In this document: positions 142 through 18,717 of the stretch, piece by piece | How positions within the stretch are numbered: position 1 is the stretch's first letter | How the letters are laid out: every line of letters begins with the position of its first letter | From: Thermodesulfobacteriota bacterium | GTDB lineage: Bacteria; Thermosulfidibacterota; Thermosulfidibacteria; Thermosulfidibacterales; B14-G1 | Reading direction: 5' to 3' | NCBI GenBank assembly: GCA_024274915.1 | Contig: JAJSAC010000047.1 | Span: 1-43,389, forward strand | DNA: 43,389 bases | The notes under the pieces: model-generated | Databases searched by the model: none | What the model was told of the DNA's origin: nothing | What the model saw: the letters and a program-made list of their open reading frames with translations, nothing else | Position numbers and translations under genes: made by a program

Positions 142-1447
142 CTTGATATGAAAGGAGGTACCCAAGTACCACCTAGCAAAAGGATCGGCAAGGCCATGGA
201 GGAACTCTTAGAGCAGGGAACCGAGGGCTACATCCTGAGGGAGTTTTTGAGGCTGGGCAAGCAACTCTTGATTCAGGAACTCCTGGAGGAGGAAGTGAAG
301 GACTTTCTGGGCAGGGGCCACTATGAAAGGACCAAAGGCGATTTCAAGGGCTACAGAAACGGGTACGAACCCAGGAAACTCAAGGATATAGAGGGTGAGT
401 TGGAACTCATGATTCCCCAGGTTCGCCAGGCCCATGAGCCTTTCAATTCCAGGATAGCCCAGTTCTTTAAAAGCCACACGGACCTTTTGGACAGGTTGGT
501 GGTAGAGATGTATACCAGGGGCCTATCCACTAGGGACATTGAGGACACCCTGGTGATGCTCACCGGGGAGCAAGTGCTTTCCAAGGGCTCCATCAGCAGG
601 GTAACGGAAGCCCTCTGGAAAGAGTACCAGGCCTTTAGTGAGAGAGATTTGTCCCAGATCAAGGTGGAGTATCTCTTTCTGGATGCCATTTATGAAAGCT
701 TGAGGCGCTATGCAGATATGAAGGAGGCCGTTCTTTGTGCCTGGGGCATAACAGAGGACGGCCGGAAGGTTCTCATAAACTTAGGTCTTGGCAACAAGGA
801 GAGCTATGAATGCTGGCTGGAGTTTCTGAGGGATCTGGTGTCCCGGGGTTTGAGACCCCCTGTGGCTGTCACCTCGGACGGAGCCCCTGGACTCATAAAG
901 GCCATAGAGGTGGTTTTTCCCAAAAGTATCAGGATCAGGTGCTGGTACCATCGTATGAGCAATTTCAGGGGCAAAGTGCCCCAAGAGTTGTGGCCTGAGA
1001 TCAAGGCGGAGCTGGAAGGAAGCCATTAGAGACGCTGCCAATTATAAGCAGGGGGCAAGGCTGGCCAAGGAATTCATATCTCGGCACCAGGAAGAATATC
1101 CCTCTTTGATAAAGGCTTTCAAAGAAGATTTGGAGGCCCTTTTGGCCCACCTGAAGTTTCCTGTGGTGCACAGGAAGTCCATCAGGACCACCAACTTAAT
1201 AGAGCGATCCTTTGAAGAGGAGAGGAGACGAAGCAAAGTGATCCCCCGATTTCTGACGGAGAAATCGGCCCTGAAGCTGGTGTACGGGGTGTTGATAAGG
1301 GCCTCGGCGAGATGGAGGCGGGTGAAGATGGGTGAGACAGAGAAGCACCAGCTGAAACTCATCCGCGAGAGTTTGGGGATAGCAGAGAAGGAGGAAGTCC
1401 ATGTTTAGTCTGGGCTATCCGTTTTCACAGGGGAATTGGGACTTGAC
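142..1447 (+). mobile_element. IS256-family insertion sequence, left end lost, right end near 1447
   Basis: The element consists of the broken transposase gene plus about 40 bp of flank. The right boundary is estimated at about 1440-1449, because the minus-strand phosphatase-like gene reads as a recognisable protein up to about 1447 and then runs into unrelated sequence. The left boundary is not visible, because the IS3 terminal repeat directly abuts the transposase start. No target-site duplication can be confirmed. Confidence 0.6.
148..1408 (+). pseudogene. IS256-family (mutator-type) transposase, frameshifted
   Basis: Two reading frames together encode one IS256-type DDE transposase of about 420 residues. 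The first (148-1029, 293 aa) carries the N-terminal part with LLIQELLEEEVKDFLGR, the first catalytic Asp region (LFLDAIYES) and the second (TSDGAPGL), followed by CWYHRM. It then hits a premature TAG. The second frame resumes at about 1022 with AIRDAANYKQGARLAKEF and carries the last catalytic Glu region (TTNLIERSFEEERRRSK), ending at 1408. The break coincides with a direct GGAA duplication (CTGGAAGGAAGCC), a 4-bp insertion that shifts the frame. As read, neither part alone has all three catalytic acids, so the element is probably non-autonomous. A sequencing error is the alternative. Confidence 0.85.
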
Positions 1448-1594
1448 CGCCGAGCGATAAGCCTCACCAGGAGTGATGGGGTGAGAGTTGTCCTGTTTCT
1501 TTAAATACCAGAATGGAGCCGAAACGATGATGACCAGAATGATCACGGTTGCCATGACTGATCTGGCTGTTTTTTTATTGTGAAGGCGTTTCAT
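1415..1594 (-). pseudogene. dual-specificity/tyrosine phosphatase-like protein, N-terminal remnant cut by IS256
   Basis: A 59-codon frame starts with an ATG that overlaps the methyltransferase stop (ATGA). It shows a basic N-terminus (MKRLHNKKTARS), one hydrophobic segment at residues 14-31, then HPITPGEAYRSA. A membrane anchor followed by PG-x-YRSA is how DSP-type phosphatases of the fused DSP-PTPase/NAD-kinase-like group begin. After about residue 49 the sequence enters the IS256 end and stops. The HCxxGxxR catalytic loop is therefore missing. The overlap with the methyltransferase indicates it was once the last gene of that transcript. The family call rests on a short stretch and is inference; the truncation is seen directly. 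Confidence 0.55.
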
Positions 1595-2424
1595 TTCTGT
1601 TCCCTCTCGCTATGAAGCTTGGGAGCCGGGATGTCATTGCCTCTGCTGTTTGGGTCCGTGATCTGGTTGTTTTTTGTGATCTTAGCCACTCTCTTTTTCT
1701 CCGGATAGTTATAAGCTGATGGAGGTTCCAGCAGTCTAATGTTGAATCCATACTTCATCGCCAGCTCTTCAAAGTAGCTTAAGGGATACCGGAAGTTGAA
1801 TTTTATCCCTTTTCCTTTGTCCATTTTAAACTTTTTAGCGGGTTTAAAAGTGAAGAAGAAGGTGGATTCACTTCCCATTATTTTCCCTATATTTTGAAAG
1901 ATTTCTTCTATTTCTTCGGGTGGAAGATGGCAGAAGACGGAGTAGGCGAACAGAAAGTCAAAGGTCTCTCCTGAGAATTCTTTGAACTGAGAGTCAGCGG
2001 TAATTAGTAGTCTAGGCTTTCGGTCTCCTAAGTCTTCTTTAATTATTAATTGTTGGGCGATTTTGATGGCTTCTGGAGAGATATCGATCCCGGTATAATT
2101 ACCAGGATTGAGGTACTTAATGAAGTGTATTCCTCCTCTTAGAGTCCCGCATCCTATGTCCAGCAGGGAGTGTTCCGGTTTTAGTCTCTGTTGAACTAGG
2201 AATTGAAATTGCAGGTGACCTATCCTTTTCCACCGGCTTGTTTTCGGCCTCCATCTGCTTTCCGTGGGTCCTAACTTGATCTGCTTATTCATGCGTTCTC
2301 TGTATACCTCGATGTATCTTATGCGTTTTTTAAGGTACAATCTGTATAGGTAGTTTATCTTAACCGATTTCACTATTCTGGATGGAAGGTGGGCAATTTC
2401 TAACATCTGCTTCGAAAAGGTCAT
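1591..2424 (-). CDS. SAM-dependent class I methyltransferase
   Basis: This 277-residue protein has the class I methyltransferase motif LLDIGCGTLRGG (motif I), YTGIDISPEAIKIAQ (post-I acidic region) and FDFLFAYSVFCHLPPEEI (motif IV). The substrate is unknown; its place after envelope glycosyltransferases suggests a sugar or lipid-linked acceptor. A GTG at 2442 is possible, but ATG at 2424 has GAGGAAGG four bases upstream and is preferred. The gene is visibly richer in A/T and the protein richer in Lys, Asn and Ile than its neighbours. It lies 190 bp from the GT2 gene in an otherwise tightly packed string, which hints at separate acquisition. Its stop overlaps the start of the truncated phosphatase-like gene. 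Confidence 0.85.
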   Translation of the reverse strand: MTFSKQMLEIAHLPSRIVKSVKINYLYRLYLKKRIRYIEVYRERMNKQIKLGPTESRWRPKTSRWKRIGHLQFQFLVQQRLKPEHSLLDIGCGTLRGGIHFIKYLNPGNYTGIDISPEAIKIAQQLIIKEDLGDRKPRLLITADSQFKEFSGETFDFLFAYSVFCHLPPEEIEEIFQNIGKIMGSESTFFFTFKPAKKFKMDKGKGIKFNFRYPLSYFEELAMKYGFNIRLLEPPSAYNYPEKKRVAKITKNNQITDPNSRGNDIPAPKLHSEREQK

Positions 2425-2615
2425 TGCGCCTTCCTCTTTCACTTTTTCTTGAGGTTAGGTGCCGTGAGTGACGGGAGCAATGGCCGTTTTTTTGTCCTTG
2501 ATTCTTTTTGCGTGCTGGTTTCTTTTGGCTTACGATGGGCCTCTCAGATGGGTGGTACAATTTTGTTTAGTGGGGTAAAATTGGTGGTGCGGTTTTTTAC
2601 TGCTACCGTTGTGAA

Positions 2616-3506
2616 CTATTTCGCTTCTTTGATCTTAAACACCCCCTCCTCTTGGGCCTGGAGAAACCTCTCCAGATTTCTCTGGGCTACTCTGGAGAGG
2701 AGAGTTACTGCCAGGGGCAAGGGAGCAAAGTAGAATCCCCTGGGAACCCAGAAACAGAAGAGGAGATAGAAGATCAGGAGAGTCAGGCTCGTCTGGTAGC
2801 AAACCTTCAGGCAGTAGGTGCTCACTGGTTCTCCCTTCAGAATAAAGGGGATGGTGACCAGTTCCCTGAGGACCTCCAGAGTCCTGGAGAGGCCGTAGTG
2901 GGAGCTCCCCGTGAGTCGGGGCCTGTCTTTGATCCTCACTTCGGCCACCTCGTGGCCCTTCACGCCGAATATGGCTGGAATGAACCTGTGGAAACCGTGG
3001 GGTATCTGGACTTCCCTCACCACCTGGGCCCGGTAGGCTTTCAGGCTGCATCCGTTGTCATGGAGGGGAACTCCGGTGGCCTTCCCGATGAGCCAGTTTG
3101 CCACTCTGGAGGGCAGGACTCTGGTGAGGAAAGGTTCCTTCCTCTTCTTTCTCCAGCCAGAGACGGCCTTATAGCCCTCTTTCAGTTTTTCCAGTAACTG
3201 GGGGATGTAAGAGGGATCGTTTTGACCGTCCCCGTCCATGCTCACCACTATATCTCCCCGGGCATGGTGGAATCCCGCCGTGAGGGCTGCCGCTTCCCCC
3301 CGGTTCCTGTCCATTTCCAAGACCCTCACCTTGGGATCCAGGGCTCTGAGGCGATGGAGGATCTCTCCACTGGCGTCGGTGCTGCCGTCGTTGACATATA
3401 TGATCTCGTACTCCTCTCCCAGGAAGTCCATGACTTCTTCGATCTCCCTATAGAGGGGCTCAATGTTCCCCTCCTCGTTGTGGATGGGGATCACCAGGGA
3501 AATCAC
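2616..3506 (-). CDS. GT2 family glycosyltransferase, ArnC/DPM1-like (polyprenyl-phosphate sugar synthase)
   Basis: The 296-residue protein opens with SLVIPIHNEEGNIEPL, followed by IIYVNDGSTDASGEIL and the metal-binding MDGDGQNDP. These are typical of GT2 enzymes that transfer a sugar from a nucleotide to dolichyl or undecaprenyl phosphate at the inner face of the membrane. The C-terminal third holds one or two hydrophobic segments (about residues 228-270), shorter than the pair in ArnC or DPM-like proteins. The GTG start overlaps the aminotransferase stop (GTGA), with GGAGGTGAG as ribosome-binding site, so the two are translationally coupled. This is the only cytoplasmic sugar-lipid synthase in the cluster and a plausible source of donor for the ArnT-like enzymes. 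The sugar is not determined. Confidence 0.85.
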   Translation of the reverse strand: MISLVIPIHNEEGNIEPLYREIEEVMDFLGEEYEIIYVNDGSTDASGEILHRLRALDPKVRVLEMDRNRGEAAALTAGFHHARGDIVVSMDGDGQNDPSYIPQLLEKLKEGYKAVSGWRKKRKEPFLTRVLPSRVANWLIGKATGVPLHDNGCSLKAYRAQVVREVQIPHGFHRFIPAIFGVKGHEVAEVRIKDRPRLTGSSHYGLSRTLEVLRELVTIPFILKGEPVSTYCLKVCYQTSLTLLIFYLLFCFWVPRGFYFAPLPLAVTLLSRVAQRNLERFLQAQEEGVFKIKEAK

Positions 3507-4618
3507 GCCTCACCTCCGAAGAATCCTTTCACCCTTTCAATGACTTCCTGGATTTCGTCTTCCATCATCTCGGGGAAGAGGGGAATGGCCAGAATCTCCC
3601 GGGCCAGCCTCTCACTCACAGGGAAAGCACCCCGGGGATACCCTTCCCTTTCCCAGGCCCTCTGGAGGTGTAGGGGGACGGGATAGTAGATCCCTGTACC
3701 GATGCCCTTCTCCTTCAAGTAGGCTGCCAACTGGTCCCTTCTGGGTGTTCTGATGGCGTATCGGTGATAGACGCTCTTTTTCCACGGTGGGTCCAGGGGA
3801 GGAGGGGTGAGTTCCTCTATCTCCTTGAAGGCATGGTTATAAATCCGGGCGATTTCCCTCCTTCTCCGGTTTTTCTCTTCCAGCTTTTTCAGTTTTACCC
3901 TTAAAACCACAGCCTGGAGTTCGTCCAGGCGGCTGTTGAAGCCGTAAAAGTGGTGGTCGTTCTTCTTTACCTGGCCGTGGACACGTAGATAGTTGAGCCT
4001 GTGAGCCACTTCGGGGTCCTGGGTGACAGCGAAGCCTGCGTCCCCCAGGGCGTTGAGGTTCTTCACCACGCCGCAACTGAAGCAGCCCACCTTCCCAAAG
4101 GTGCCCACCTTTTTGCCCTTGTATTCGGCTCCGTGGGCATGGGAAGCGTCTTCTATGAGGAAAAGCCCATGCCTCTGACAGATCTCCAGCAGGGGATCCA
4201 TCTCTACAGGATGGCCGTACATATGGACCACCATAAGGGCCCTGCTCCGAGGGGTGATGGCTTCTTCCACCTGGTTGGGGTCGGGGCCAAAGTCTGACTC
4301 TTGGGCATCTACCGGTACAGGTCGGGCACCGGCCCATTTTATGGCCTCTACGCTGGCGGCGAAGGCATTGGCGTGGAGGATCACCTCGTTTCCCGGGCCT
4401 ATTCCGCAGGCAATGAGCCCCAAAAGCAGGGCATCGGACCCGGAGCCCATACCATAAGCGTATCGGATTTCCAGATACTCTGCTACCTCCTTCTCAAAGG
4501 CCAGGAGGTTCTCCCCGTTGAAGAGGCGCATGGTGGAAAAAACCCTTTCCCATTCCTCTTTGACCTGGGGTGCCACCTCTTCCCATTCTCTCTTAAGATC
4601 CAGCAGGGGTATGCCCAA
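3503..4618 (-). CDS. DegT/DnrJ/EryC1 sugar aminotransferase (GnnB/WbpE-like)
   Basis: This PLP enzyme of 371 residues transfers an amino group, usually from glutamate, to a keto-sugar nucleotide. IPLLDLKREWEE at the start, LIEDASHAHGA (Asp157 for the PLP ring nitrogen) and VVKNLNALGDAG (Lys186, Schiff base) are the expected family motifs. A much longer open frame extends upstream, but it runs through the preceding gene. The start chosen is TTG at 4618, with AAGGAGGA seven bases upstream, four bases after the preceding stop. Together with the Gfo/Idh oxidoreductase two genes upstream it resembles GnnA/GnnB or WbpB/WbpE pairs that make 3-amino-3-deoxy sugars. The exact product cannot be read from sequence. 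Confidence 0.88.
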   Translation of the reverse strand: MGIPLLDLKREWEEVAPQVKEEWERVFSTMRLFNGENLLAFEKEVAEYLEIRYAYGMGSGSDALLLGLIACGIGPGNEVILHANAFAASVEAIKWAGARPVPVDAQESDFGPDPNQVEEAITPRSRALMVVHMYGHPVEMDPLLEICQRHGLFLIEDASHAHGAEYKGKKVGTFGKVGCFSCGVVKNLNALGDAGFAVTQDPEVAHRLNYLRVHGQVKKNDHHFYGFNSRLDELQAVVLRVKLKKLEEKNRRRREIARIYNHAFKEIEELTPPPLDPPWKKSVYHRYAIRTPRRDQLAAYLKEKGIGTGIYYPVPLHLQRAWEREGYPRGAFPVSERLAREILAIPLFPEMMEDEIQEVIERVKGFFGGEA

Positions 4619-4622
4619 TGTC

Positions 4623-6251
4623 TTATCCTCCTTCAAAATCTTTATTGGAAAATAAGGTAAACCTGTGGCCACAGGGCTGCCTGGCCAGGGGTTTGATTCC
4701 CAGTTTTTGGCAATAGTGACGAAAGTACTTGCCCTTGGTGATGAGATAGATCTTTCCCCTTTTGGCCAGGATCCTTTTGAGGTTCTCCTCCCCTTTACCC
4801 ACCACGGGGATGGGTGCCATCCTGGTGTAGAAGTTGAACTCCCCGGCATGGGGGGTCTTGATGCCGAAGAGCATGAGGGGGGCCTTGTCCCTCCGGGAGA
4901 GTTCCACGGCTTTCTTGCAAAGGGTTTTCACGGACTTGCATGGGTCGGCCCTGGGCACCACCAGGAGAAAGGAGAAGAGGAGGGTCGCCCCCATCAAGAG
5001 GGTGATGTACTCCCTGATTGGGATGGGTTTTTCTCTCATCCCTTTGAGGCCCAGGGCCGTGAAGATCAACAGGACGCATCCCAAACCCAAGAGGGGGATG
5101 AAGAGCATCTCGAGCTTCAGGTAAGCAGCCAAGGGTGCTCCTATGCCCACAATGGGCAGGACTCCCAGAAGAAGGTAAAAGGGGTACTTCACCCCCTTTT
5201 CCATTTCCGGGAGGGCCGAGGTTCTACCCTGGAGGAGGGCCTCCTGGAGGTAGAGGGCTATCATAAGGGCTATGGCAGGGTAGAGGGGAAGTAGGTAGGT
5301 GGCCCTTTTGGTCTTGGCTATGGAGAAGAAGATGAAGTTGGCAGTAAACCACCAGAAGAGAAGGAGATAGGGTTTTTTCTTCTCCTCCGGCAATTTGAGG
5401 CCGTATAAGATAGCTCCAGGCAGGAAGAGGGACCAGGGGAAGGCGTCCAGTATAATGTGATAAAAGTAGAAGAGGGGGCCGTGGCGGTGGACCTTGGTGT
5501 GGAGAAAGAGGGCCGAGGTCTTGTAGTAGATCTGGTCCAGGGCGTAGCCACCTCCCAATTTAAGGCAGGCGGGCACCAACCACGAGAAGTAGAAGAGAAA
5601 GGATAAAGGTAGGGCCAACCAGAACTCCTTCTCCTTGAGGATGTGGATGTCCCTGGTGTGGAGGTGGTAGCAGGCCAGGGCAAGCCCCGGAACAGAGAAG
5701 GCCACAGGGCCCTTTCCCAGGGCCCCTATACCCACAGCGCTGAACCCCAGGGCGTAAAACAGGAGCTTTTTTCTTTTTTCCCTCCTGGCCACCTGATTGC
5801 CAAAGTAGAAAGCCATGATGGCCATGACGACCAGGAGAGTTAGGGGTATGTCCATCTTGGCCCTTCTGGCTTCCCAGGCGAACCAGGGGGTAGTGATGAG
5901 GATGAGGCTGCCCCAGAAGCCTACCCGGGGTGAAAAGAGGCGGGATCCAAAGTACAGGGTGGCAAGAGCGGTTATCAGGCCCATTAAGGCTACGGGTAGT
6001 CTCGCTGCCCACTCCTTCACACCAAAGAGCTTGTAAGAGAGGGCATCTAGCCAGAAGAGGAGAGGAGGTTTCTTGGTGTAGACTTCCCCGTTGAGGTGGG
6101 GAACGAGGTAATCCCCCGTTACCACCATCTCCCTGGCTACTTCAGCATAGCGGGGTTCGTCGGGGGACCAGAGGCCCCAGCCTCCCAGGTTGGTGAAAAG
6201 GAGCAGTAAGGAGACCAGAAGGACAATGATCCAGTGGAAGCCTTTCTTCAC
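4623..6251 (-). CDS. ArnT-like integral membrane glycosyltransferase (GT39/GT83 type), paralogue A
   Basis: This protein has 542 residues and about a dozen hydrophobic segments. The first periplasmic loop has WSPDEPRYAEVAREM (Asp31-Glu32) and YTKKPPLLFWL (Lys61), both hallmarks of ArnT/PMT enzymes, followed by ARRAKMDIPLTL with the second conserved Asp. The later SIAKTKRATYLLPLYPA is also typical. These enzymes transfer a sugar from polyprenyl phosphate to lipid A, protein or glycan at the outer face of the inner membrane. The open frame extends far upstream, but GTG at 6251, two bases after the preceding stop and just before the first membrane helix, is the sensible start. A soluble C-terminal segment ends with KIYLITKGKYF, a motif shared with the three other paralogues. 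Acceptor and sugar are unknown. Confidence 0.88.
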   Translation of the reverse strand: MKKGFHWIIVLLVSLLLLFTNLGGWGLWSPDEPRYAEVAREMVVTGDYLVPHLNGEVYTKKPPLLFWLDALSYKLFGVKEWAARLPVALMGLITALATLYFGSRLFSPRVGFWGSLILITTPWFAWEARRAKMDIPLTLLVVMAIMAFYFGNQVARREKRKKLLFYALGFSAVGIGALGKGPVAFSVPGLALACYHLHTRDIHILKEKEFWLALPLSFLFYFSWLVPACLKLGGGYALDQIYYKTSALFLHTKVHRHGPLFYFYHIILDAFPWSLFLPGAILYGLKLPEEKKKPYLLLFWWFTANFIFFSIAKTKRATYLLPLYPAIALMIALYLQEALLQGRTSALPEMEKGVKYPFYLLLGVLPIVGIGAPLAAYLKLEMLFIPLLGLGCVLLIFTALGLKGMREKPIPIREYITLLMGATLLFSFLLVVPRADPCKSVKTLCKKAVELSRRDKAPLMLFGIKTPHAGEFNFYTRMAPIPVVGKGEENLKRILAKRGKIYLITKGKYFRHYCQKLGIKPLARQPCGHRFTLFSNKDFEGG

Positions 6252-6253
6252 CC

Positions 6254-7327
6254 TCAGCCTACCCCCAGTCTGGATTTCTCCGGAACGAAGGGGAGGGTTA
6301 CTTCCTCTCCCCTTTCCACCGACTCGTAAGCGGCCTGGATGATCTCCAAGGCTCTGACGCCCTCTTCCCCCAGGGCCAGGCCATAGGGGAGGGTGGTTCC
6401 ATCCTTCAGGATATACTCTACCACTTTTTGGAGGTACTGGTGATGGCCGAAGCCGTACACATCTGGTGGATTCTCGTGGTATTTCTCTTGAACTATTTCG
6501 TCTTCGGGTAAGGGTTCCTCGAAGTTCCATAGGTTGATCTTGTTCATGGCGAAGCCACCCAGCTCCACAGTGCCCTTTTCTCCTATAATGGTGAGGGATC
6601 CTTCCAGGTCTTTTGGCCTGGCGCACACCGTGGCCTCTATGGTGCCCAGGGCTCCGCTTTCGAACTTCAGCACCGCGACGATGGTGTCTTCTGCTTCCAT
6701 ATTGATGAGACTTCTGTTGGCTTTAGCGAAGACACTCTTCACCGGTCCCATCATCCATTGGAGCATGTCCACGTAGTGGCATGCCTGGTTGGCCAGTACT
6801 CCCCCATCCATGGCCCAGGTACCCCTCCAGGGATCGGCCTCATAGTAGTCCTGTCTTCTGCACCAGTAGAGGCGTGCAGAGCCCAGAATGAGTTTTCCGA
6901 ACCTTCCAGCTTCCAGGGCCTTTCTTAGCTTCACCACGGGCAGATTGAAACGGTTCTGGACCACGGTGATGAGGTGGAGGCCCCTTTGGTTGGCCACTTC
7001 CACCATCTGACGGGCCTCTGAGAGAAGGAGGGCGATAGGCTTCTCCACCAGGATATGTTTGTTGAATCTCCTTATCGCTTCCAGGGCGATCTTGCCGTGG
7101 GTGCCTGACGGAGTGAGGATATCCACCACATCTATCTCTTCCCTTTCCAGCATCTTGCGGAAATCGGTGTACCAGGGGACTTCAAACTGGTGAGAAAAGG
7201 CCTTCGCCTTTTCCGGGTTGATGTCACACACGGCTGTCAGCCTGGCTTCTGGTATGCTGGTCAGGATCCTGGAGTGCCGGGAAGCGATGCGCCCGCAGCC
7301 TATTAGAGCGAACTTCAAGGTTTTCAT
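6254..7327 (-). CDS. Gfo/Idh/MocA-family NAD-dependent sugar oxidoreductase (GnnA/WbpB-like)
   Basis: The 357-residue protein begins with a Rossmann fold (FALIGCGRIASRHSRIL) and has HILVEKPIAL with Glu-Lys-Pro at about 95-97, which is diagnostic of the family. It continues with MDGGVLANQACHYVDMLQWM, a pattern frequent in WlbA/WbpB-type nucleotide-sugar dehydrogenases where the His is catalytic. Such enzymes oxidise the 3-hydroxyl of a UDP-HexNAc derivative to a 3-keto sugar, which a DegT enzyme then aminates. The gene sits 2-5 bp from its neighbours within the envelope operon. Family membership is secure; substrate assignment is inference from the partner aminotransferase. Confidence 0.85.
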   Translation of the reverse strand: MKTLKFALIGCGRIASRHSRILTSIPEARLTAVCDINPEKAKAFSHQFEVPWYTDFRKMLEREEIDVVDILTPSGTHGKIALEAIRRFNKHILVEKPIALLLSEARQMVEVANQRGLHLITVVQNRFNLPVVKLRKALEAGRFGKLILGSARLYWCRRQDYYEADPWRGTWAMDGGVLANQACHYVDMLQWMMGPVKSVFAKANRSLINMEAEDTIVAVLKFESGALGTIEATVCARPKDLEGSLTIIGEKGTVELGGFAMNKINLWNFEEPLPEDEIVQEKYHENPPDVYGFGHHQYLQKVVEYILKDGTTLPYGLALGEEGVRALEIIQAAYESVERGEEVTLPFVPEKSRLGVG

Positions 7328-7331
7328 ATCT

Positions 7332-8312
7332 CTATCCTCCTGGGGGGCTAGTCTCTTCCTTGGTTTTTCTAAATAAGGCCGCCAGGTAGGCGGGGATCCC
7401 TATAAGAAGGGAGAAGAGGAGGATGGTGAGGTGGAGGGAGAACCCCAGGGTTACGGCCCTCTTCCTGGCCATGCCCATGAACATGAAAGCCCCTGCCCAT
7501 CCCGCCTCGAACATGCCAAACTCGGCGAAGGTTTGGAGGGGAAGGGCTGCTACCAGCTCAGATGCCGTGCTTCCCAGGACCACTTTCCAGTAATTGAGGT
7601 GGAAGGTGGTGGAGATGAGGAGCTTCTTGGCTATAAGGAAAAAGGCCCCGAATTTGACCACCCATATGGCCAGGGAAAGGGCCATAAGACCCACCAGCTT
7701 CTTCCCTTTCCACAGGCGTCTGTATTGCTCCTGGGCCTGGACAAGAGGGACGCTGAACCGCTCTCTTTTAGAGGTGTTCTTCAGGGTCCACAGCACGAGA
7801 GAAAGGGCGTATGGGATGGTGAAAATCATTCCCAGGAAGACGAGAATTATCAGAAAGACCGCGGAGAACTTGGTTACAGGCATGTTGAGACAGATGAGGG
7901 AGATGAAGAAGAGGGGACCCAGACTGCAGAGGTCGGCTAGGCGGGCACTCACCAAGGTGGAGGTGGAGATGCCCACGGGGATATTGTGAAACCTCTTACA
8001 AAAGTAGGGGAAGGTCAGCTCCCCGCTCCTGAAGGGGAAGACGTTGTTGGACACGGTATGAAGGGCGACTATATGGAAGATGGAGGGGAGGGGAAAGACG
8101 CGGCCTAGGAGGAACTGCCACCTTAGGGCTCTGAGGAGGTAGGATGCGAGATAGATGAGGAAGGGGAAGAGGAGTTGTCCGGTGAGGAGGGAGGTGAGGT
8201 TCTCTTTGAGGGTAGGGATATCCAGTTGCCAGAATATGAGGAGCAGCAAGAGAACGGTTAGAAAGAAGATTCCGTAGTTTTTAACCCCCTTCGCCAGCAA
8301 TGTTTTCTCCAA
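7332..8312 (-). CDS. UPF0104/LPG-synthase transmembrane-domain protein
   Basis: This polytopic protein has 326 residues and about eight hydrophobic segments. It carries SYLLRALRWQFLLGR followed by ALHTVSNNVFPFRSGE, the pattern of the LPG_synthase_TM (UPF0104/AglD) family. Members include the membrane half of MprF, which flips lysyl-phosphatidylglycerol, and proteins linked to polyprenyl-sugar transfer. The gene lacks the soluble synthase domain of MprF, so it is the flippase-like module only. In this operon it could move a lipid-linked sugar or modified lipid across the inner membrane; that role is inferred. The start is TTG at 8312, with GGGAAAGGA a few bases upstream. The gene is packed between an ArnT-like gene and the oxidoreductase. 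Confidence 0.8.
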   Translation of the reverse strand: MEKTLLAKGVKNYGIFFLTVLLLLLIFWQLDIPTLKENLTSLLTGQLLFPFLIYLASYLLRALRWQFLLGRVFPLPSIFHIVALHTVSNNVFPFRSGELTFPYFCKRFHNIPVGISTSTLVSARLADLCSLGPLFFISLICLNMPVTKFSAVFLIILVFLGMIFTIPYALSLVLWTLKNTSKRERFSVPLVQAQEQYRRLWKGKKLVGLMALSLAIWVVKFGAFFLIAKKLLISTTFHLNYWKVVLGSTASELVAALPLQTFAEFGMFEAGWAGAFMFMGMARKRAVTLGFSLHLTILLFSLLIGIPAYLAALFRKTKEETSPPGG

Positions 8313-8333
8313 GAAATCCTTTCCCTTGAGGTT

Positions 8334-9938
8334 CTAGGGACCTGTGCCTGACTTCCAGGCCGGTTTTCTTGAGGTAGGAGACAACAGAACCAACACCAAC
8401 TTCCCGCGGGGATAGAGGTTGTCCCCTTCCTCCAATATTTTCACCTTTCCCTCCCAAGTACGGCTGATTAGTCTCAGCTTCTTTGCCTTGGTGATAAGGA
8501 AGATCCGCTGATATTTATGGGTGTCGAAAAATCTCTTCAGAGTAGCCCTTTTCTTTTCTCGGATTACCAGATGATTTGTGTAAAATACAAGACTGGGGAT
8601 GGAGAAGGGGTGGGTGACGATGAGGTCCCCTTCTCTTATTTCGGCCTGTATTTTCTGGGCAAAGGAGGGAGAGAGCTTCTTTTGCTCCAGCGGCGGTATG
8701 ATGAAGTATGGAATGGCTACCAGGAAGATGATCATAAGGGCAGCCAAGCACTTGGCCCATTTGAGGGGCAGCTCTTGGGTCAGATAAAAGCTCCAAGCAC
8801 CCAGTAGGAGAAGGGCTCCCGCTACAAGGATGAGACCTGGGGGGACAAACAGACCTTTGAGCCACATTACTCCAAGGAGGATCACCATCATGCCCACGGC
8901 GATAAGCGTTCCTGTCGTGGCTGGTTTTAGTCTTTCGCTTTTTCCACTTTCCACATACTCCCTTGCCACATCAGCCATGGAAAGGGCTAGGGCAGGGTAA
9001 ACGGGCATTATATAGTTGGGTAGTTTGGTCTTGGCCAGGGAGAAGAGGGTAAAGGGGAACAGTATCCATAGATAGGTGAATAGATAGACCCCTTTATCCT
9101 TTTTCGCCCTTTGGAAGAGGTGGTAGAGGGCTTGGGGTAAAAGGGGAGACCAGGGGATTAGGGCCAAAAGTAGCACCGCAGCATAGTAAAATACAGGGCC
9201 CCGATGCCCTCCTATAGGTCTGATAAACCTGGTGATGTTGTGGTAAAGGATGAATCCCCTGTAAAATTGGTTGTGAGTTCTCAGATCTACCAAGATGTAC
9301 CACGGGGCAGCGATGACAAAGAATGCGAGGAGGCCTGTCAGGGGAAAGGCCCTTTTTATTCCTTTTTTGCCTTGGGAGAAGAGTAGGTAAAGCACCTCTG
9401 TGCCTGAGGGAATAATGATTCCCAGAGGCCCTTTGGCAAGGACGGCCAATCCGGCAGCCCCATAGCCCCGTGTGACTTTGTTCTCCATGAAGAGGAAGAG
9501 ACTGAGGGTGAGAAAAAAGAGGAAGACGGCGTCCGGAGTTGCGGCCTTGGCTATTATGGGAAACTGGATGTTGGTGACCGTGATGAGGGAGGCTAAAAAT
9601 CCCACTTCTTTGCTCCATAGCCTGCTTCCAAAGATAAATATAAGGAGCACCGTGCCCATCGAGAAGAGAACAGAAGGTAGTCTGGCGGCAAACTCGCCTA
9701 CTCTTAGGAGTTTGTATGAAGCTATCATGGCCCAGTATTCTAGGGGAGGTTTGTCGGTTCTTAGCCTGAAGTTGAAGGTTGGAACAATGGGATCTTTTCT
9801 CTGAAGCATTTCTCTGGCACATTGGGCGTTGCAGGCCTCGTCTCTGTCCCAGAGAGACATGCCGGGTGTCCCCGGTAGAAAGACCATTAGAGAAATTAGC
9901 CCTAGAAGGGCAAGGGTGAGGAGGTTCTTATCCCTCAA
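8334..9938 (-). CDS. ArnT-like integral membrane glycosyltransferase, paralogue B
   Basis: This second ArnT/PMT-type enzyme has 534 residues from the preferred TTG start (GGAGGG five bases upstream). An upstream TTG at 9953 is possible but has no comparable ribosome-binding site. The first loop shows LWDRDEACNAQCAREM (Asp33-Glu34) and LRTDKPPLEYW (Lys63), then AKAATPDAVFLFF with the second conserved Asp. SLAKTKLPNYIMPVYPA is present in the later half, and the C-terminal domain has RIFLITKAKKL. The Pro-Arg-Tyr after Asp-Glu seen in paralogues A and C is replaced here by Ala-Cys-Asn, which suggests a different sugar or acceptor. The start lies inside the end of the PAP2 gene (11-bp overlap), so translation is coupled. 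Confidence 0.87.
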   Translation of the reverse strand: MRDKNLLTLALLGLISLMVFLPGTPGMSLWDRDEACNAQCAREMLQRKDPIVPTFNFRLRTDKPPLEYWAMIASYKLLRVGEFAARLPSVLFSMGTVLLIFIFGSRLWSKEVGFLASLITVTNIQFPIIAKAATPDAVFLFFLTLSLFLFMENKVTRGYGAAGLAVLAKGPLGIIIPSGTEVLYLLFSQGKKGIKRAFPLTGLLAFFVIAAPWYILVDLRTHNQFYRGFILYHNITRFIRPIGGHRGPVFYYAAVLLLALIPWSPLLPQALYHLFQRAKKDKGVYLFTYLWILFPFTLFSLAKTKLPNYIMPVYPALALSMADVAREYVESGKSERLKPATTGTLIAVGMMVILLGVMWLKGLFVPPGLILVAGALLLLGAWSFYLTQELPLKWAKCLAALMIIFLVAIPYFIIPPLEQKKLSPSFAQKIQAEIREGDLIVTHPFSIPSLVFYTNHLVIREKKRATLKRFFDTHKYQRIFLITKAKKLRLISRTWEGKVKILEEGDNLYPRGKLVLVLLSPTSRKPAWKSGTGP

Positions 9939-10599
9939 GGTATCCCTCCACAAATTCCGGGAGCTTCATTGTTGAGGCCCATTTCCCCAGCAAACACCCG
10001 ATGGAAATGGAGATAATGATATCAGAGGGGTAGTGATAGAGGAGTACCACCCTGGAAAGCCCTATCATCAGGGCCCCAAGCTTGAAAAGGTGTTTCCCCC
10101 TGGGAAAGAAGTGGGAAAAGATGCAGGCCAAGGCGAAGGCAGCAGTGGTATGTCCTGAGGGAGTGGAGAAGAATTTGTTCATGAGGGTAGGGCCGTGGGG
10201 CCAGTAGTGGCCTGAGAGCAGAAGGGAGGGCCTTGGCCTTCCTAGGAAGACTTTTATCGCCAGGGAGACCAGCCCTGCCATGGTCAGGCCCAACAAACCC
10301 CTTCCGAATGCTTCCCTTCTTTTGGGTATGTTAGCGGGGAGCACCAGTAAAAGGAAGATGAAAAAGAAGAGGACCTCTCCACTGCCCAAAGAGCTGACAA
10401 AGGAGGAGAGATGGTGGAACAGCCCCGATTGATGGGGTTTGAAGTAGAGATAGACGTACACATCGGCTTTACTCACGTACAGGGTGGTATACATAAAAAG
10501 GGCCAGAAGGGCCGGTACGAGATCTCGCGGGGTGAGAGCCTGGTTTTCGGTTAGGCCTTTAAGGCGAGGTTTTTTTAGTAGAGCTTTCCAGAAGGACAA
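9928..10599 (-). CDS. PAP2-family membrane phosphatase
   Basis: All three PAP2 signature motifs are present in order: KVFLGRPRP (Kx6RP), TPSGHTTAAF (PSGH) and SRVVLLYHYPSD (SRx5Hx3D). Five to six hydrophobic segments place it in the inner membrane. Relatives hydrolyse undecaprenyl pyrophosphate, phosphatidylglycerophosphate or the phosphates of lipid A. In this cluster, recycling of a polyprenyl carrier or removal of a lipid A phosphate (LpxE-like) are the two sensible roles. A TTG at 10626 also opens the frame, but TTG at 10599 has AGGAG seven bases upstream and is preferred, giving 223 residues. The gene overlaps the 3' end of ArnT paralogue C by about 40 bp, an unusually deep overlap. Confidence 0.88.
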   Translation of the reverse strand: MSFWKALLKKPRLKGLTENQALTPRDLVPALLALFMYTTLYVSKADVYVYLYFKPHQSGLFHHLSSFVSSLGSGEVLFFFIFLLLVLPANIPKRREAFGRGLLGLTMAGLVSLAIKVFLGRPRPSLLLSGHYWPHGPTLMNKFFSTPSGHTTAAFALACIFSHFFPRGKHLFKLGALMIGLSRVVLLYHYPSDIIISISIGCLLGKWASTMKLPEFVEGYLEG

Positions 10600-12160
10600 A
10601 CCTTTTTCTCCTGTTGCTGCTTTCAAGTGCCACCCTTAGCCTTGACTTCCAGGTCTTTTTTATTCTGTTCCAATACTTTTCCCTGGTTATGATGAAGAAC
10701 CCCTCGGAAGTTTCTGAGAAGGCCCTTTCAATGTCCTTTGGTCTTGAAACCTTGGGTAGGTAGGGCCTTTCCAGATAGAACTCCAGGGCTGCGTCGAAAG
10801 AGCCCATCCTGTAGAGGGGGGCGCCATCCACTATGCTCTTTATCTTGGAGGCTAGAGGCTTGGCTGAGCGGTATTGTCGGTCATATTGGGGCTGGAAGCG
10901 GAGAAAGTAGAGGCCATAGGCTGTGAAAAAAAGGAGACCCAGGGAGAGGATGATACCCGTTCTCGCCCTGGGCCTTCCAAGGAGGTGAAGGGCAAAAAGG
11001 GAGGGGGGGAGAATGGCCAAGGCAGGAATCCATTTCCCCGGATGGAGTTTAAAGAAGAAGGGTAGAAGGGGGGCTAGTGCTAAGCCCAAGGTACTCAACC
11101 CTAGCCCTAGTTGGACCAGGGTGTTGAAGACCTTGTCTGGCTCTCTTTGGAAGAACCTGGTGACCACTACGCCCGTTATCAAGGCCAGGGCAGGAGCTGT
11201 AGGCAACAGGTAGACCACCCTTTTTGCGGCTGCCATGGAGAAGAATAGCAGGGTGAAGAAGAACCAGATGAGGGGCAGGAGGAGAGGAGAATTGGGCTTG
11301 TCTTTTCCCTTCCACCAGAGCCATAGGCTGGCTGGGAAGAAGAGAAAGGCGGGAGCAAAGCTGACGGGGAGGGCATGAAAATAGAAGTACCAGGGTTTTT
11401 GATGGTCCAGCCCCGTAGAGAAGTGCTTCAGGTTGTGGAGCAGGAAGAACTTTTTGGAGAACTCTGGAGTGACTGAAAGGAACCAGGGGAGGATTAGGAT
11501 GAGGAAAAGGATGAGCCCCTGGGGAATCCGTAGTTTTTTTATCTCTTTCAGGTCCTTCCGGACCGCCAGATAGAGGAAGGCTGTGCCCCCTGGGATCAGT
11601 ACGGCCACGGGCCCTTTGGTGAGAAATCCCAGAGCAGCGGGTATGTAGGCCAGGGTGTAGTAGAGCCCCTTTTTCTTGTTCGATTGGTAGCCCTTGTAAA
11701 AAAGGAAGAGGGTGAAGAGGATGAAGAAACAGAGGGCCATGTCGGGTATAGAGCGCCTGGCGGTGATGATGTACTCCAGGGTGAAGAGGAGGGTGAAGGC
11801 GCTGATGAGACCTGCGGTGTCGTTGTATATGGCCCTGCCGAAGAGGAACGTCACCGTGATTCCCAGAATGCCCATGATGGCGAAGGGGAATCGGGCGGAA
11901 AATTCGTTCACTTCTCCATGGTTCAGAAGTTTGGCCGATGCAGCTATAAGCCAGTAGGTCAGGATGGGTTGGTCTGTGCGTAGCTTGCCTTTGTACTTGG
12001 GTGTGATCCAGTCTCCTGACTCCAGCATGTTACGGGCAGTGTGGGCGTATCGGGGTTCGTTGTTATTCCAAAGGGAGATTCTGCCCAAATTAACGAAACA
12101 GATGGAGGAGCTAGCCAGGACGAGGATGAGTAAGTAGAGCCTTAGCGGTTTTAGGACCAT
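10559..12160 (-). CDS. ArnT-like integral membrane glycosyltransferase, paralogue C (divergent active-site motifs)
   Basis: The 533-residue protein has the same architecture as paralogues A, B and D: a first helix, a long periplasmic loop, many helices and a C-terminal soluble domain with GFFIITREKYW. Its loop motif reads LWNNNEPRYAHTARNM, with Asn34 where the others have Asp, and LRTDQPILTYW, with Gln64 where the others have Lys before Pro. The later SMAAAKRVVYLLPTAPA also departs from the AKTK form. The second conserved Asp (ARRSIPDMALCFF) is kept. The enzyme may be inactive, regulatory or of altered donor specificity. The ATG start overlaps the end of the upstream 51-residue gene by 10 bp. 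Confidence 0.85.
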   Translation of the reverse strand: MVLKPLRLYLLILVLASSSICFVNLGRISLWNNNEPRYAHTARNMLESGDWITPKYKGKLRTDQPILTYWLIAASAKLLNHGEVNEFSARFPFAIMGILGITVTFLFGRAIYNDTAGLISAFTLLFTLEYIITARRSIPDMALCFFILFTLFLFYKGYQSNKKKGLYYTLAYIPAALGFLTKGPVAVLIPGGTAFLYLAVRKDLKEIKKLRIPQGLILFLILILPWFLSVTPEFSKKFFLLHNLKHFSTGLDHQKPWYFYFHALPVSFAPAFLFFPASLWLWWKGKDKPNSPLLLPLIWFFFTLLFFSMAAAKRVVYLLPTAPALALITGVVVTRFFQREPDKVFNTLVQLGLGLSTLGLALAPLLPFFFKLHPGKWIPALAILPPSLFALHLLGRPRARTGIILSLGLLFFTAYGLYFLRFQPQYDRQYRSAKPLASKIKSIVDGAPLYRMGSFDAALEFYLERPYLPKVSRPKDIERAFSETSEGFFIITREKYWNRIKKTWKSRLRVALESSNRRKRFVLLESSTKKTSP

Positions 12161-12306
12161 CTGCTAAAGACCCTGATAAAAAAGTCTACTTTGGTTAGGA
12201 AGAGAAGACCTCCTGCTGCCACTCCTGCCAGGAAGCTCAGCACGTATACTACTCCCCTCTTACCTAAGTGTTCCTTACCTTTCATGATAGATTTTTTAAA
12301 TACCAT
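12151..12306 (-). CDS. small single-span membrane protein (51 aa), first gene of the envelope operon
   Basis: This short frame begins with ATG seven bases after a strong CGGAGGA ribosome-binding site. It encodes a basic N-terminus (MVFKKSIMKGKEHLGKRG), a hydrophobic span of about 20 residues with several Gly and Ala (VVYVLSFLAGVAAGGLLFL), and a short basic tail. Its stop lies 10 bp inside the start of the ArnT-like gene, which itself has a poor ribosome-binding site, so coupled translation is likely. No family is recognised. The good start signal, TM segment, and coupling argue that it is real. It could be a small partner subunit of the glycosyltransferase or a leader peptide. Confidence 0.65.
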   Translation of the reverse strand: MVFKKSIMKGKEHLGKRGVVYVLSFLAGVAAGGLLFLTKVDFFIRVFSRWS

Positions 12307-12632
12307 AGTTCCTCCGTTTGGGAAGGGCTAACCCTGAAAAAGGGTGGAGGTCAACGCACCAGAATTGTGTCGTGTAAGGTGGGGGGGGCTAGGTATCACC
12401 GCTAAGTAGGGGGATTGGAGTTGGTGCACCAAATTTTCCCAGTGGGCAATTTAGGTACATGGTCAGATTCTCGGGTGGATGTTGGGAAGAACAATAAAGG
12501 GCGCGCTGCACCGATTTGTGCCTGGGGCCGTTTCCTTCCTCTTATTCGCGGTTTGGGAAGGGGACGCGTAAAGGACCTCACCAACCTTGTGGCATTGAAG
12601 GTCTTTGTTCAACCATAGGATAAAGGAAGACT
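12307..12632. other. divergent intergenic spacer, 326 bp, probably holding promoters for both directions
   Basis: The spacer separates the minus-strand envelope operon from the plus-strand metallophosphoesterase. Open frames of 60-67 codons occur on both strands, but they lack ribosome-binding sites and family features and look like chance. Visible structure includes a G8 run at about 12381, a perfect 12-bp palindrome at 12421, and a short stem ACCCT/AGGGT at about 12331-12345. No convincing -35/-10 pair was found by eye on either strand. Confidence 0.5.
12421..12432. repeat. perfect 12-bp palindrome, possible operator
   Basis: TTGGTGCACCAA is a perfect palindrome lying between the two divergent transcription units. 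Its length and position would suit a dimeric regulator, but a 12-bp palindrome can occur by chance and no regulator is identified. Confidence 0.3.
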
Positions 12633-13712
12633 ATGAAGAAGGTTGTGGTCACGCTGTTTTTCTTGTTGGGTGTTTTGTCAGGACTCTTCCTGATGTTCTA
12701 CCACTGCGACCGGTTTTTGGGGGATTGGTTTGCCAGAAGCAGGACTCGGATTGAGACCTCAAGCTATAAGCTGGTGGTGGAAGGTGGAATCATATCGGAG
12801 TCGAAGCTGGTCAGGGTTCATATCAGAGCCACAGCTTTGACGGTGAAGGTTCTTTATCAGAGCTTTAAGAGGCACCCGGGGGGCTCGACGGTGGTGGAAG
12901 TGGACAATCTCCCCCAGGGATTTCGGGTGACTTATAGAGGGGGAAATCCAGGGTTTGCCTCCAGGGGCAGGAACTCTTTTACCCTTCTCATTCCTTCCCG
13001 GAGGAGGGCGACGACCTTTGAGATCCTCATCACTCCTCCCCCCAGTACAGGTTCCTTCACCTTCTGGGTAGGGGGTGACAATAGGGAGAGACTGGATGTG
13101 CTCCTATCCCTTCTGAAGAGGGCTTCCCGCGAGAAGCCTTTGTTCGTGGTTCTGGGTGGCGATTTGGTAGTCCGGGGCCTTTGGTGGCAATACGAGAGGC
13201 TCCTGGAGGTGTTGGATGGCTCTTCTGTGCCCGTCTTTTCCGTGCCCGGCAATCACGATTTGGATTTTTGTGGCCGGAGACTCTTTACCCGGTATTTGGC
13301 TCCGGATCATTATTATTTTACCTATGGTAGGAGTCTCTTTGTGGTCCTCGACACCAATGGTGAGGAGAAGGGACAATTGGCCTGGTTGGGGACTCTGCTG
13401 CAGGAGACCAGGTACAGGCATCTCTTCGTCTTCGTCCACAAGCCCCCCTTTGATCCCAGACCCGGTTACCACCACTCCATGGGGGATAAGGAGTTTGCCA
13501 GGGGACTTCTGGATCTGTTGGTGAGATACAGGGCCGATGTTCTCTTCTGCTCCCACATCCACAGTTATATCCAGACAAAGTACAAGGGGTTGAAGGTGGT
13601 TATCACCGGTGGCCTGGGGGCCCATAGGAAGAAGCCTATCTTGCCCTTCCATTACGTGAAGGTGGAGGTCTCCGGGAGTAAGGTAGTTACAGAGATGGAG
13701 CGCCTTCAGTAG
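12633..13712 (+). CDS. membrane-anchored calcineurin-type metallophosphoesterase
   Basis: The 359-residue protein starts with a hydrophobic segment (residues 4-23) that is either a signal anchor or a signal peptide. A beta-rich region of about 110 residues without a recognised family follows, and then the phosphoesterase domain from about 142. Metal-binding motifs are in order: VGGDNRER (about 148-150, in place of the usual DxH), LGGDLVV (Asp177), VPGNHDLD (206-209), FVHKPP and FCSHIHSY. The catalytic domain should therefore face the periplasm or outside. The ATG start has AAGGAAG just upstream. It is the only plus-strand gene between the two ArnT-bearing units and is convergent with paralogue D. 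An envelope substrate is plausible but not shown. Confidence 0.82.
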   Translation: MKKVVVTLFFLLGVLSGLFLMFYHCDRFLGDWFARSRTRIETSSYKLVVEGGIISESKLVRVHIRATALTVKVLYQSFKRHPGGSTVVEVDNLPQGFRVTYRGGNPGFASRGRNSFTLLIPSRRRATTFEILITPPPSTGSFTFWVGGDNRERLDVLLSLLKRASREKPLFVVLGGDLVVRGLWWQYERLLEVLDGSSVPVFSVPGNHDLDFCGRRLFTRYLAPDHYYFTYGRSLFVVLDTNGEEKGQLAWLGTLLQETRYRHLFVFVHKPPFDPRPGYHHSMGDKEFARGLLDLLVRYRADVLFCSHIHSYIQTKYKGLKVVITGGLGAHRKKPILPFHYVKVEVSGSKVVTEMERLQ

Positions 13713-13723
13713 GCCTTCCTACT
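13708..13723. terminator. short convergent hairpin between phosphoesterase and ArnT paralogue D
   Basis: AGTAGG and CCTACT form a 6-bp stem with a 4-base loop exactly between two converging stop codons. There is no clear T-run on either side, so it is at best a weak terminator. Confidence 0.25.
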
Positions 13724-15143
13724 TTGCGGTAGGCTCGGAAGGCGTAGTAGATGATGGAGAGTGAAGAGAGGGAGGAGTGATCTCTACCAGAACCAGCCTG
13801 GGAGATGTTCCCATCACCTTTACAGAATAGGGAGGGGATAGGGCCAGGATGGAGGGGAGTTTGTCCCTTTTTGTCAGGATGTAGGCTTTGGATTCCTGGG
13901 GAAGGGCCTTTTTAAGCTTTTCCACGGACCTGAAGTCCTGGACTTTCTTTCCCGAGTAAAAGGCCAGGGAGTAGCTCTTTTTTGCTTTGTAAGTATAGAG
14001 GGGGGCTTTGTCATTTTGGACCATGAGGGGCACTGCAAAGGCCGCGGACTTTCTGGCGGAGTAGATAGGCATGGCCACCGTAAAGCCTAGTATATAGATG
14101 ATGAGGACTGGGATGGTCACTTTGAGGGGTGGGCCTTTGTTCCCTTTCCAAGTGCCGGCCATGAGGAGGGCCCAGGCTGGAAAGGTGGGTAGTATGTAGT
14201 GGGGCATCTTGGACTTGGACAGGGTGAAGAAGAGGGTAGGCAGTACGATCCAGGAAGCGAGAAAGAGGGTGCGATGGGGGTATAGGCGCCAGAGCGCTTT
14301 TAGCCTTGTCAGGGTCCTTGGGAGAAAGAAGGTCCATGGTAAGAGTCCCAGGATGATTACAGGAAGGTAATAGTAGAAAGGGGCCCCCCGATGGAACCGA
14401 GGGGTGAAGTATCTCAAGACGTTCTCCTCCCAGAAGAAACGGTAGCAGTAGCCCGGGTTTTTCAGCTCCGCTAGGATGAAAGGGGGGACAGCTATCACTA
14501 AGAAAACCAAGACGACCAACAGCCAAGGAATGGGGGTCTTTTCCTTATCCACCAGGGTCTTGTAGAGGATGATGGGCAGTAGGACCATGAGAGGGGTGAC
14601 TAGGCCTATGGGCCCTTTGGTGAGAAAGGCCAGGGCAGCGAGTAGGGAGGCCAGGGCCCAGCTCTTTTTCCCACCCTCCTCCAGGGCTTTCCAAGAAAAG
14701 AAGAGGGAGGCGAGGATGAAGAAGGTGAGGAGCATATCGAAAATCACTATATGGGCATAGCCCACGTAGATGAGGGAAGTGGCTTGAAGCAGGGCGGCTA
14801 TATATCCCTTCTCCCTTCCCCAAAGGTGGGTTCCCAGCAGTAAAGTGATCCACACTCCCATGATGGCTGCCAGGGCCGAGGGGAGACGTGCGGCAAATTC
14901 TCCTGGACCAATTAGCAGGAAGGTGGAAGCCACCAACCAGTAGTAGAGGGGAGGTTTCTGGTATCGGATTTCCCCCTTTAGGGTAGGGGGGATCCAGTGT
15001 CCGCTGTTGACTATCTCCAGGGCTACTTGGGCGTTTCGTCCTTCGTCGGGATCCAGTAAGGGGTACGCCCCCAGCCCTGGGAGAAAGATGGCCAGGGAGA
15101 GGAGAAAGATCAGGAGCCAGGAGTGGTTGCTCCTAAGGCACAA
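13719..15143 (-). CDS. ArnT-like integral membrane glycosyltransferase, paralogue D (distal gene of Mla operon)
   Basis: This fourth ArnT/PMT-type enzyme has 474 residues, the shortest of the set. Its motifs are LLDPDEGRNAQVALEI (Asp33-Glu34), IRYQKPPLYYW (Lys63), AHIVIFDMLLTFF (second Asp) and TLSKSKMPHYILPTFPA. The C-terminal domain is reduced but still has KAYILTKRDKL. The start is TTG at 15143, only 6 bp after the mlaC stop, with AAGGAG a little further upstream than ideal. The gene therefore appears to be co-transcribed with the Mla genes, which links a lipid-sugar transferase to outer-membrane lipid homeostasis. Lipid A modification is the simplest guess; acceptor and donor remain unknown. 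Confidence 0.87.
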   Translation of the reverse strand: MCLRSNHSWLLIFLLSLAIFLPGLGAYPLLDPDEGRNAQVALEIVNSGHWIPPTLKGEIRYQKPPLYYWLVASTFLLIGPGEFAARLPSALAAIMGVWITLLLGTHLWGREKGYIAALLQATSLIYVGYAHIVIFDMLLTFFILASLFFSWKALEEGGKKSWALASLLAALAFLTKGPIGLVTPLMVLLPIILYKTLVDKEKTPIPWLLVVLVFLVIAVPPFILAELKNPGYCYRFFWEENVLRYFTPRFHRGAPFYYYLPVIILGLLPWTFFLPRTLTRLKALWRLYPHRTLFLASWIVLPTLFFTLSKSKMPHYILPTFPAWALLMAGTWKGNKGPPLKVTIPVLIIYILGFTVAMPIYSARKSAAFAVPLMVQNDKAPLYTYKAKKSYSLAFYSGKKVQDFRSVEKLKKALPQESKAYILTKRDKLPSILALSPPYSVKVMGTSPRLVLVEITPPSLHSPSSTTPSEPTAK

Positions 15144-15149
15144 AGGGTT

Positions 15150-15758: not shown

Positions 15759-15768
15759 ACCTTCACCT

Positions 15769-16617: not shown

Positions 16618-16632
16618 CCCTTCGTATCCTCC

Positions 16633-17896: not shown

Positions 17897-17907
17897 GCCC
17901 ACTCCTT

Positions 17908-18690: not shown

Positions 18691-18702
18691 TTTCACCCTT
18701 GG

Positions 18703-18717
18703 ACCCTTTTGAAGGGT
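18703..18717. repeat. inverted repeat in the mlaE leader
   Basis: ACCCTT and AAGGGT flank a 3-base centre immediately upstream of the preferred mlaE start. It could be a small leader hairpin affecting initiation or an operator half-site pair. It is short and may be incidental. Confidence 0.25.

Follow-up and report, generated by a model that had tools for sequence, protein, structure and literature searches.

A predicted operon for a lipid-linked 3-amino sugar in an uncultured relative of heat-loving vent bacteria

Background

Which sugar, and which acceptor, would be served by a row of ArnT-like glycosyltransferases that does not appear to belong to the aminoarabinose pathway? The question is raised by a stretch of 43,389 nucleotides, here called the window, which is the entire contig JAJSAC010000047.1 (C40) of a 2.03 Mb genome (GCA_024274915.1; 93% complete, 77 contigs) from an uncultured bacterium whose relatives include heat-loving bacteria of vents. 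An initial annotation had described a single island of about 13 kb that decorates the envelope with several sugars. We propose instead, with a probability of about 0.45, that nine of its genes form an operon for a lipid-linked 3-amino sugar following a GT2 plus GT83 design, in which a Gfo/DegT pair would make the sugar, a GT2 enzyme would load it on a carrier, a UPF0104 protein would flip it, ArnT-like GT83 enzymes would transfer it to lipopolysaccharide (LPS) and a PAP2 phosphatase would free a position on lipid A.

Results and Discussion

A conserved predicted operon and its more widespread core

The nine genes (1591-12160, minus strand) are co-directional and overlap or are closely spaced. 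From GT83c through PAP2, GT83b, UPF0104, Gfo, GT83a and DegT to GT2, overlaps or gaps do not exceed about 21 bases, and the methyltransferase gene lies downstream of GT2 after a gap of 173 bases. With this anatomy, as read from coordinates, the block is a predicted operon, made up as follows:

10559-12160, minus: GT83c, ArnT-like glycosyltransferase, the operon's first gene (PMT_2, 1.1e-20)
9928-10626, minus: PAP2 membrane phosphatase, LpxE-like (Pfam, 1.1e-21)
8334-9953, minus: GT83b, ArnT-like glycosyltransferase (PMT_2, 1.6e-14)
7332-8312, minus: UPF0104/LPG_synthase_TM membrane protein, candidate flippase (9.9e-29)
6254-7327, minus: Gfo/Idh oxidoreductase, predicted WlbA-like UDP-sugar 3-dehydrogenase (3q2k, 1.7e-80)
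4623-6251, minus: GT83a, ArnT-like glycosyltransferase of the core cassette (PMT_2, 2.5e-18)
3503-4618, minus: DegT/DnrJ/EryC1/StrS sugar aminotransferase (Pfam, 1.6e-107)
2616-3506, minus: GT2, predicted ArnC/DPM1-like polyprenyl-phosphate sugar synthase (Glycos_transf_2, 3.2e-32)
1591-2442, minus: class I S-adenosylmethionine-dependent methyltransferase, the operon's last gene (Methyltransf_12, 5.9e-14)

In the sequence itself, DegT starts at 4618 with a TTG codon preceded by AAGGAGG and GT83a with a GTG just past the Gfo stop, while the GT2 start overlaps the DegT stop.

This gene order is matched at 52-85% identity in three relatives of the same family: G003 has all nine genes, G002 keeps the order until its contig ends within GT83a, and G004 has eight genes in order. 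The methyltransferase gene is loosely linked, as it adjoins GT2 in G003 and its relative in G004 lies on another contig. The strong family E-values (1e-14 to 1e-107 for the window genes), together with the order kept in relatives, argue that the block is not a chance assembly. The parts list of the initial annotation (four ArnT/PMT-type enzymes, an ArnC/DPM1-like GT2, Gfo/Idh, DegT, PAP2, UPF0104 and methyltransferase) was confirmed, and the conservation on which it had staked its proposal is found both in these three genomes and, in the form of a reduced core, in thermophiles less closely related. A foreign island was considered and rejected, since base composition changes without a sharp step and gene order is conserved within the family.

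The reduced core can be followed further. A genome of the same order but another family (G006) retains GT83a-Gfo-DegT-GT2-GT83c, GT83b being confined to the window's family, and a profile search with Gfo found GT83-Gfo-DegT-GT2 in metagenome-assembled genomes of Thermosulfurimonas and Thermodesulfatator. A close Gfo occurs in 21 of 395 sampled Thermodesulfobacteriota genomes, and is adjoined by DegT and GT2 in 10 of these (in one, another gene separates Gfo from DegT). The cassette Gfos cluster together in a maximum-likelihood tree, in a clade that includes two Gfos without an adjacent GT2, apart from the WlbA of C. violaceum and from Gfos in other contexts. The G006 Gfo (L029) clusters with those of Thermodesulfobacteria (L132-L135; support 99/97) and not with Gfos of the window's family, so that the core cassette may have been transferred horizontally. 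As Gfo, DegT and GT2 recur together across lineages, most simply, GT2 would take what the other two make as its substrate; their travelling as one cassette points to a single C3-aminated sugar on polyprenyl phosphate.

The sugar made by Gfo and DegT

The nearest solved relatives of the window Gfo are 3q2k and 3q2i (1.7e-80), presumably the WlbA structures of B. pertussis and C. violaceum; the next, a glucuronide 3-dehydrogenase, follows at about 1e-28. The segment R-x2-YY-x4-WRGTW-x-DGG of WlbA, which we infer to read a uronate, is present in the window protein. Both the sequence relationship and this shared segment place the Gfo with WlbA, and it is predicted to be a WlbA-like UDP-sugar 3-dehydrogenase (UDP, uridine diphosphate). 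DegT is nearest to 7b0d, DesV (2oga) and QdtB (3frk), with WbpE and ArnB less near. DesV and QdtB are 3-ketosugar aminotransferases, and DegT probably acts on a 3-keto sugar as well. A UDP-glucose-dehydrogenase-type gene was found in all seven genomes of the order examined (typed outside the window's genome by Pfam score only), with second or partial dehydrogenase matches in G004 and G044; the copy in the window's genome scores highest with TuaD, a UDP-glucose 6-dehydrogenase. Because this gene is common to the examined genomes, UDP-glucuronic acid (UDP-GlcA) would be the substrate most widely available to carriers of the cassette, and a 3-amino-hexuronic acid is the favoured, though unproven, product.

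Could the pair instead be GnnA and GnnB, making UDP-GlcNAc3N for the lipid A backbone? Both enzyme families are the same and both pairs aminate C3. However, the window's genome has another Gfo directly after lpxA (L023:9651-10628, contig C76), which matches PDB entry 7bvj at 1.8e-48 and scores 245 bits against the archaeal UDP-GlcNAc 3-dehydrogenase model, under its 450-bit cut-off. This GnnA-like protein lacks the WlbA segment, and the window Gfo, 29% identical to it, matches WlbA and not the GnnA type. A second DegT adjoins lptD, near glmM (L109:5736-9030, contig C7), and gene sizes suggest the same neighbours in G002 and G003. The lpxA-adjacent Gfo and the lptD-adjacent DegT are therefore candidates for the GnnA- and GnnB-like roles, and we rejected these roles for the operon's pair, for which they now seem very improbable. 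The presence of these candidates makes it plausible that the lipid A backbone is 2,3-diamino-2,3-dideoxyglucose (GlcN3N), as in Aquifex, whose GlcN3N backbone bears galacturonic acid (GalA) (PMC5644692, PMC7663294).

Loading, flipping and transfer

The closest solved relatives of GT2 are ArnC structures (4.6e-37). All four ArnT-like proteins of the window (GT83a-c and GT83d, from a neighbouring unit described below) exceed the Pfam PMT_2 cut-off, out of eight PMT_2 matches in the genome. They match the NCBIfam ArnT model at 1e-40 to 1e-54 (GT83a 9.6e-43, GT83b 4.9e-49), with 138-184 bits, under the equivalog cut-off of 567 bits. This match is independent, unlike the ArnT match of our own profile, which includes E. 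coli ArnT. The ArnT motifs RYA and YFEKP (PMC5377068) are partly kept, as RYA and YTKKP in GT83a, CNA and RTDKP in GT83b, RYA and RTDQP in GT83c, and RNA and RYQKP in GT83d. For the poor AlphaFold model of GT83a (predicted local distance difference test score, pLDDT, 54), ArnT was the sole confident Foldseek match (3e-11; template modelling score, TM, 0.39). Scores under the cut-off and incomplete motifs led us to reject ArnT orthology, so the four enzymes are not classed as ArnT; they probably work like it.

The PAP2 protein has intact active-site motifs (KX6RP, PSGH and SRX5HX3D), which are common to LpxE and other PAP2 lipid phosphatases, and a poor AlphaFold model (pLDDT 63). Among solved structures its best match is LpxE 6ebu (2.2e-9), presumably the enzyme from Aquifex aeolicus in the study that reports activity on undecaprenyl diphosphate (C55-PP) and phosphatidylglycerol phosphate (PGP) (PMC6581854). 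In sequence, it resembles LpxE.

The UPF0104 protein is a candidate flippase on two grounds: the pairing of an ArnC-like GT2 with UPF0104 recurs, and in gpgSDF, the gene set for glucosaminyl phosphatidylglycerol, flipping has been assigned to a UPF0104 protein by unverified prediction (PMC12713373). The recurrence is seen where a second ArnC-like GT2 is directly followed by UPF0104, at L212:7576-9671 (contig C46 of the window's genome), downstream of mreB-C-D, and at L213:7860-9823 (contig C30 of G003). The likeness to gpgSDF also opens another route, in which the sugar goes onto a phospholipid, as an aminoglycolipid, or onto a periplasmic protein, PMT_2 also spanning protein mannosyltransferases. 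GpgS, however, is a GT4 enzyme accompanied by a deacetylase (PMC12713373), whereas the operon here has an ArnC-like GT2, and its GT83 enzymes are closest to ArnT; we regard this route as improbable.

The proposed pathway and its acceptor

Under the proposal of a lipid-linked 3-amino sugar destined for LPS, the WlbA-like Gfo would oxidise C3 of a UDP-sugar in the cytoplasm, most likely a UDP-hexuronate, DegT would aminate the 3-keto group and GT2 would load the 3-amino sugar onto polyprenyl phosphate. With the UPF0104 protein assisting the flipping of the lipid-linked sugar, GT83a and GT83c (and GT83b in the window's family) would transfer the sugar to LPS in the periplasm, where the LpxE-like PAP2 would free the lipid A position that bore phosphate. 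The sequences establish the genes, the families to which they belong, the conservation of their order and the recurrence of Gfo, DegT and GT2 as a set in several lineages. Which sugar is made, what flips it, what PAP2 acts on and where the sugar ends up are all points that we infer, and the acceptor, although most likely LPS, is the weakest step. A more specific version, in which polyprenyl-phosphate-linked 3-amino-3-deoxy-hexuronic acid, formed through C3 oxidation followed by transamination and then flipped by UPF0104, replaces the lipid A phosphates of deep-branching thermophiles as a zwitterionic tag, seems doubtful.

Several observations weigh against the proposal. The support for the cassette Gfo clade is moderate (89/95), and the window's genome also has a UDP-GlcNAc/UDP-ManNAc-type 6-dehydrogenase, so that UDP-N-acetylglucosaminuronic acid (UDP-GlcNAcA) is a possible substrate. 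The core cassette has neither PAP2 nor GT83b nor UPF0104. LpxE enzymes also dephosphorylate C55-PP and PGP (PMC6581854), and the carrier lipid may thus be what PAP2 acts on. At one Thermodesulfobacteria locus examined (L134), a Wzy_C/O-antigen-ligase-like gene and a GT4 gene come after the cassette, an arrangement with which a core or O-antigen acceptor fits as well as lipid A. The last two points, along with a core cassette devoid of PAP2, favour a pathway in which the same lipid-linked 3-amino sugar is placed on the LPS core or O-antigen and PAP2 just recycles the carrier lipid. In the window's family, though, PAP2 lies between two GT83 genes and has LpxE as its best solved relative, and the enzyme nearest to the GT83 proteins, ArnT, acts on lipid A; we hold this acceptor to be somewhat unlikely.

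Plain galacturonosylation of the Rgt type must also be weighed, in which GT2 makes polyprenyl-phosphate-GalA, the GT83 enzymes transfer GalA to lipid A, and Gfo and DegT serve an unrelated sugar such as O-antigen GlcNAc3NAcA (2,3-diacetamido-2,3-dideoxyglucuronic acid). The parts match the rgtE, rgtF and lpxE cluster of M. loti (PMC5644692), and GalA on the Aquifex backbone fits as well, but Gfo and DegT lie inside the operon and accompany GT2 from lineage to lineage, in a block without an acetyltransferase, which makes this explanation distinctly unlikely.

A separate unit with the mla genes

The fourth ArnT-like gene, GT83d, lies beyond a gene of opposite strand and directly follows mlaC:

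12633-13712, plus: calcineurin-like metallophosphoesterase (Metallophos, 8.5e-15, profile 2-191 of 191)
13719-15143, minus: GT83d, terminal gene of the mla operon, a separate unit (PMT_2, 3.5e-21)
15150-18726, minus: mlaC, mlaA, mlaD, mlaF and mlaE (matches to MlaC, MlaA, MlaD and ABC_tran; mlaE assigned by position and by its conservation alongside the mla set in relatives)

In G001, G002 and G004, GT83d is the terminal gene of the mlaEFDAC operon, and for this reason we treat it as a unit separate from the nine-gene operon; in G002 and G004 the two are on different contigs. A single island with four transferases was thus rejected, and what had been annotated as one locus of some 13 kb divides into the operon at 1591-12160 and an mla operon ending in GT83d. 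Nor are several sugars needed, a Gfo-DegT-GT2 cassette implying one 3-amino sugar with several transferases. Several GT83 enzymes can use one lipid-linked donor, as do the Rgt enzymes of Rhizobium. The low mutual identity of the four GT83 proteins (about 29-35%) and the second ArnC-like GT2 of the genome would suit an island with several different sugars, yet GT83d sits in the mla operon of relatives and the block has one GT2 and one sugar-modifying pair, so that we give this version hardly any credence. The "phosphatase remnant" of the initial annotation, if the gene at 12633-13712 was meant, is no remnant, as its Metallophos domain is complete; copies adjoin GT83c in G002 and, in partial form, in G003.

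In at least four genomes of the family, including the window's (13719-18726; L117, L118, L119), the mlaEFDAC operon for phospholipid transport ends in an ArnT-like GT83 gene, and a literature search on Mla combined with a glycosyltransferase turned up nothing relevant. Relatives of GT83d (48-49% identity) also head sets with a TolC-type outer-membrane protein and a further gene, at L024:9188-15973 (contig C63 of the window's genome), where the set also holds an AcrB-type pump, and at L124:3710-10539 (contig C114 of G004), which has a large gene in the corresponding set. The contig's left end holds an IS256/Mutator-type transposase in two open reading frames (148-1029 and 1106-1408, plus strand), probably a broken element.

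Comparison with known systems

The Arn system (arnBCADTEF) shares a DegT aminotransferase, an ArnC-like GT2 and an ArnT-like GT83 with the operon, whose DegT and GT2 both share 34% identity with their E. coli counterparts, ArnB and ArnC respectively. It differs in that the operon is without ArnE/F, and Gfo and DegT suggest amination at C3 rather than C4. Bifunctional ArnA was not found, E. coli ArnA matching only separate Fmt-like and epimerase-like proteins, and a search for ArnD, run without a positive control, gave no match. The view that this is an ArnC/ArnT-like sugar-transfer system distinct from the aminoarabinose pathway is thus supported, while the accompanying statement that canonical arn genes are missing holds for ArnA and, within the limit of that search, for ArnD.

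In Lgm of Bordetella and Flm/NaxD of Francisella, a GT2 and a GT83 add an amino sugar to lipid A, the amine coming from deacetylation of an N-acetyl sugar on the carrier. The GT2 plus GT83 logic is the same, but the operon's amine would come from oxidation and transamination. Such a pair is known from the Wlb/Wbp pathways to UDP-GlcNAc3NAcA and its mannuronic counterpart UDP-ManNAc3NAcA, in which a WlbA/WbpB-type 3-dehydrogenase is followed by an aminotransferase (PMC10622841); the operon is without the WbpD acetyltransferase and the WbpI epimerase, and its product is predicted to enter a GT2/GT83 route. The gpgSDF genes of P. aeruginosa likewise encode a sugar-lipid synthase together with a flippase-like protein of the UPF0104 family (PMC12713373), but the synthase is a GT4, a deacetylase accompanies it and GT83 is absent.

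If correct, the proposal would extend the set of lipid-linked sugar pathways acting on Gram-negative surface charge by one that runs through C3 amination, and would give UPF0104 proteins a testable substrate. Literature searches turned up nothing relevant on 3-amino-3-deoxyuronic acid on lipid A or on the lipid A of Thermodesulfobacteria, and found no lipid A analysis for the vent lineages in which the pathway is set. Thermosulfurimonas and Thermodesulfatator have cultured members, which opens the prediction to a check by mass spectrometry.

The closest known design is the Rgt/LpxE galacturonosylation of lipid A. The Rgt/LpxE/LpxF systems of Rhizobium, Mesorhizobium and Aquifex have one RgtE-like GT2, several GT83 enzymes and an LpxE-type PAP2, and in M. 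loti rgtE, rgtF and lpxE form a cluster (PMC5644692); GT2, GT83 and PAP2 are found together in the operon too. To this set the operon adds the C3 dehydrogenase/aminotransferase pair and the UPF0104 protein, so that it most closely resembles an Rgt/LpxE system with a C3-amination branch.

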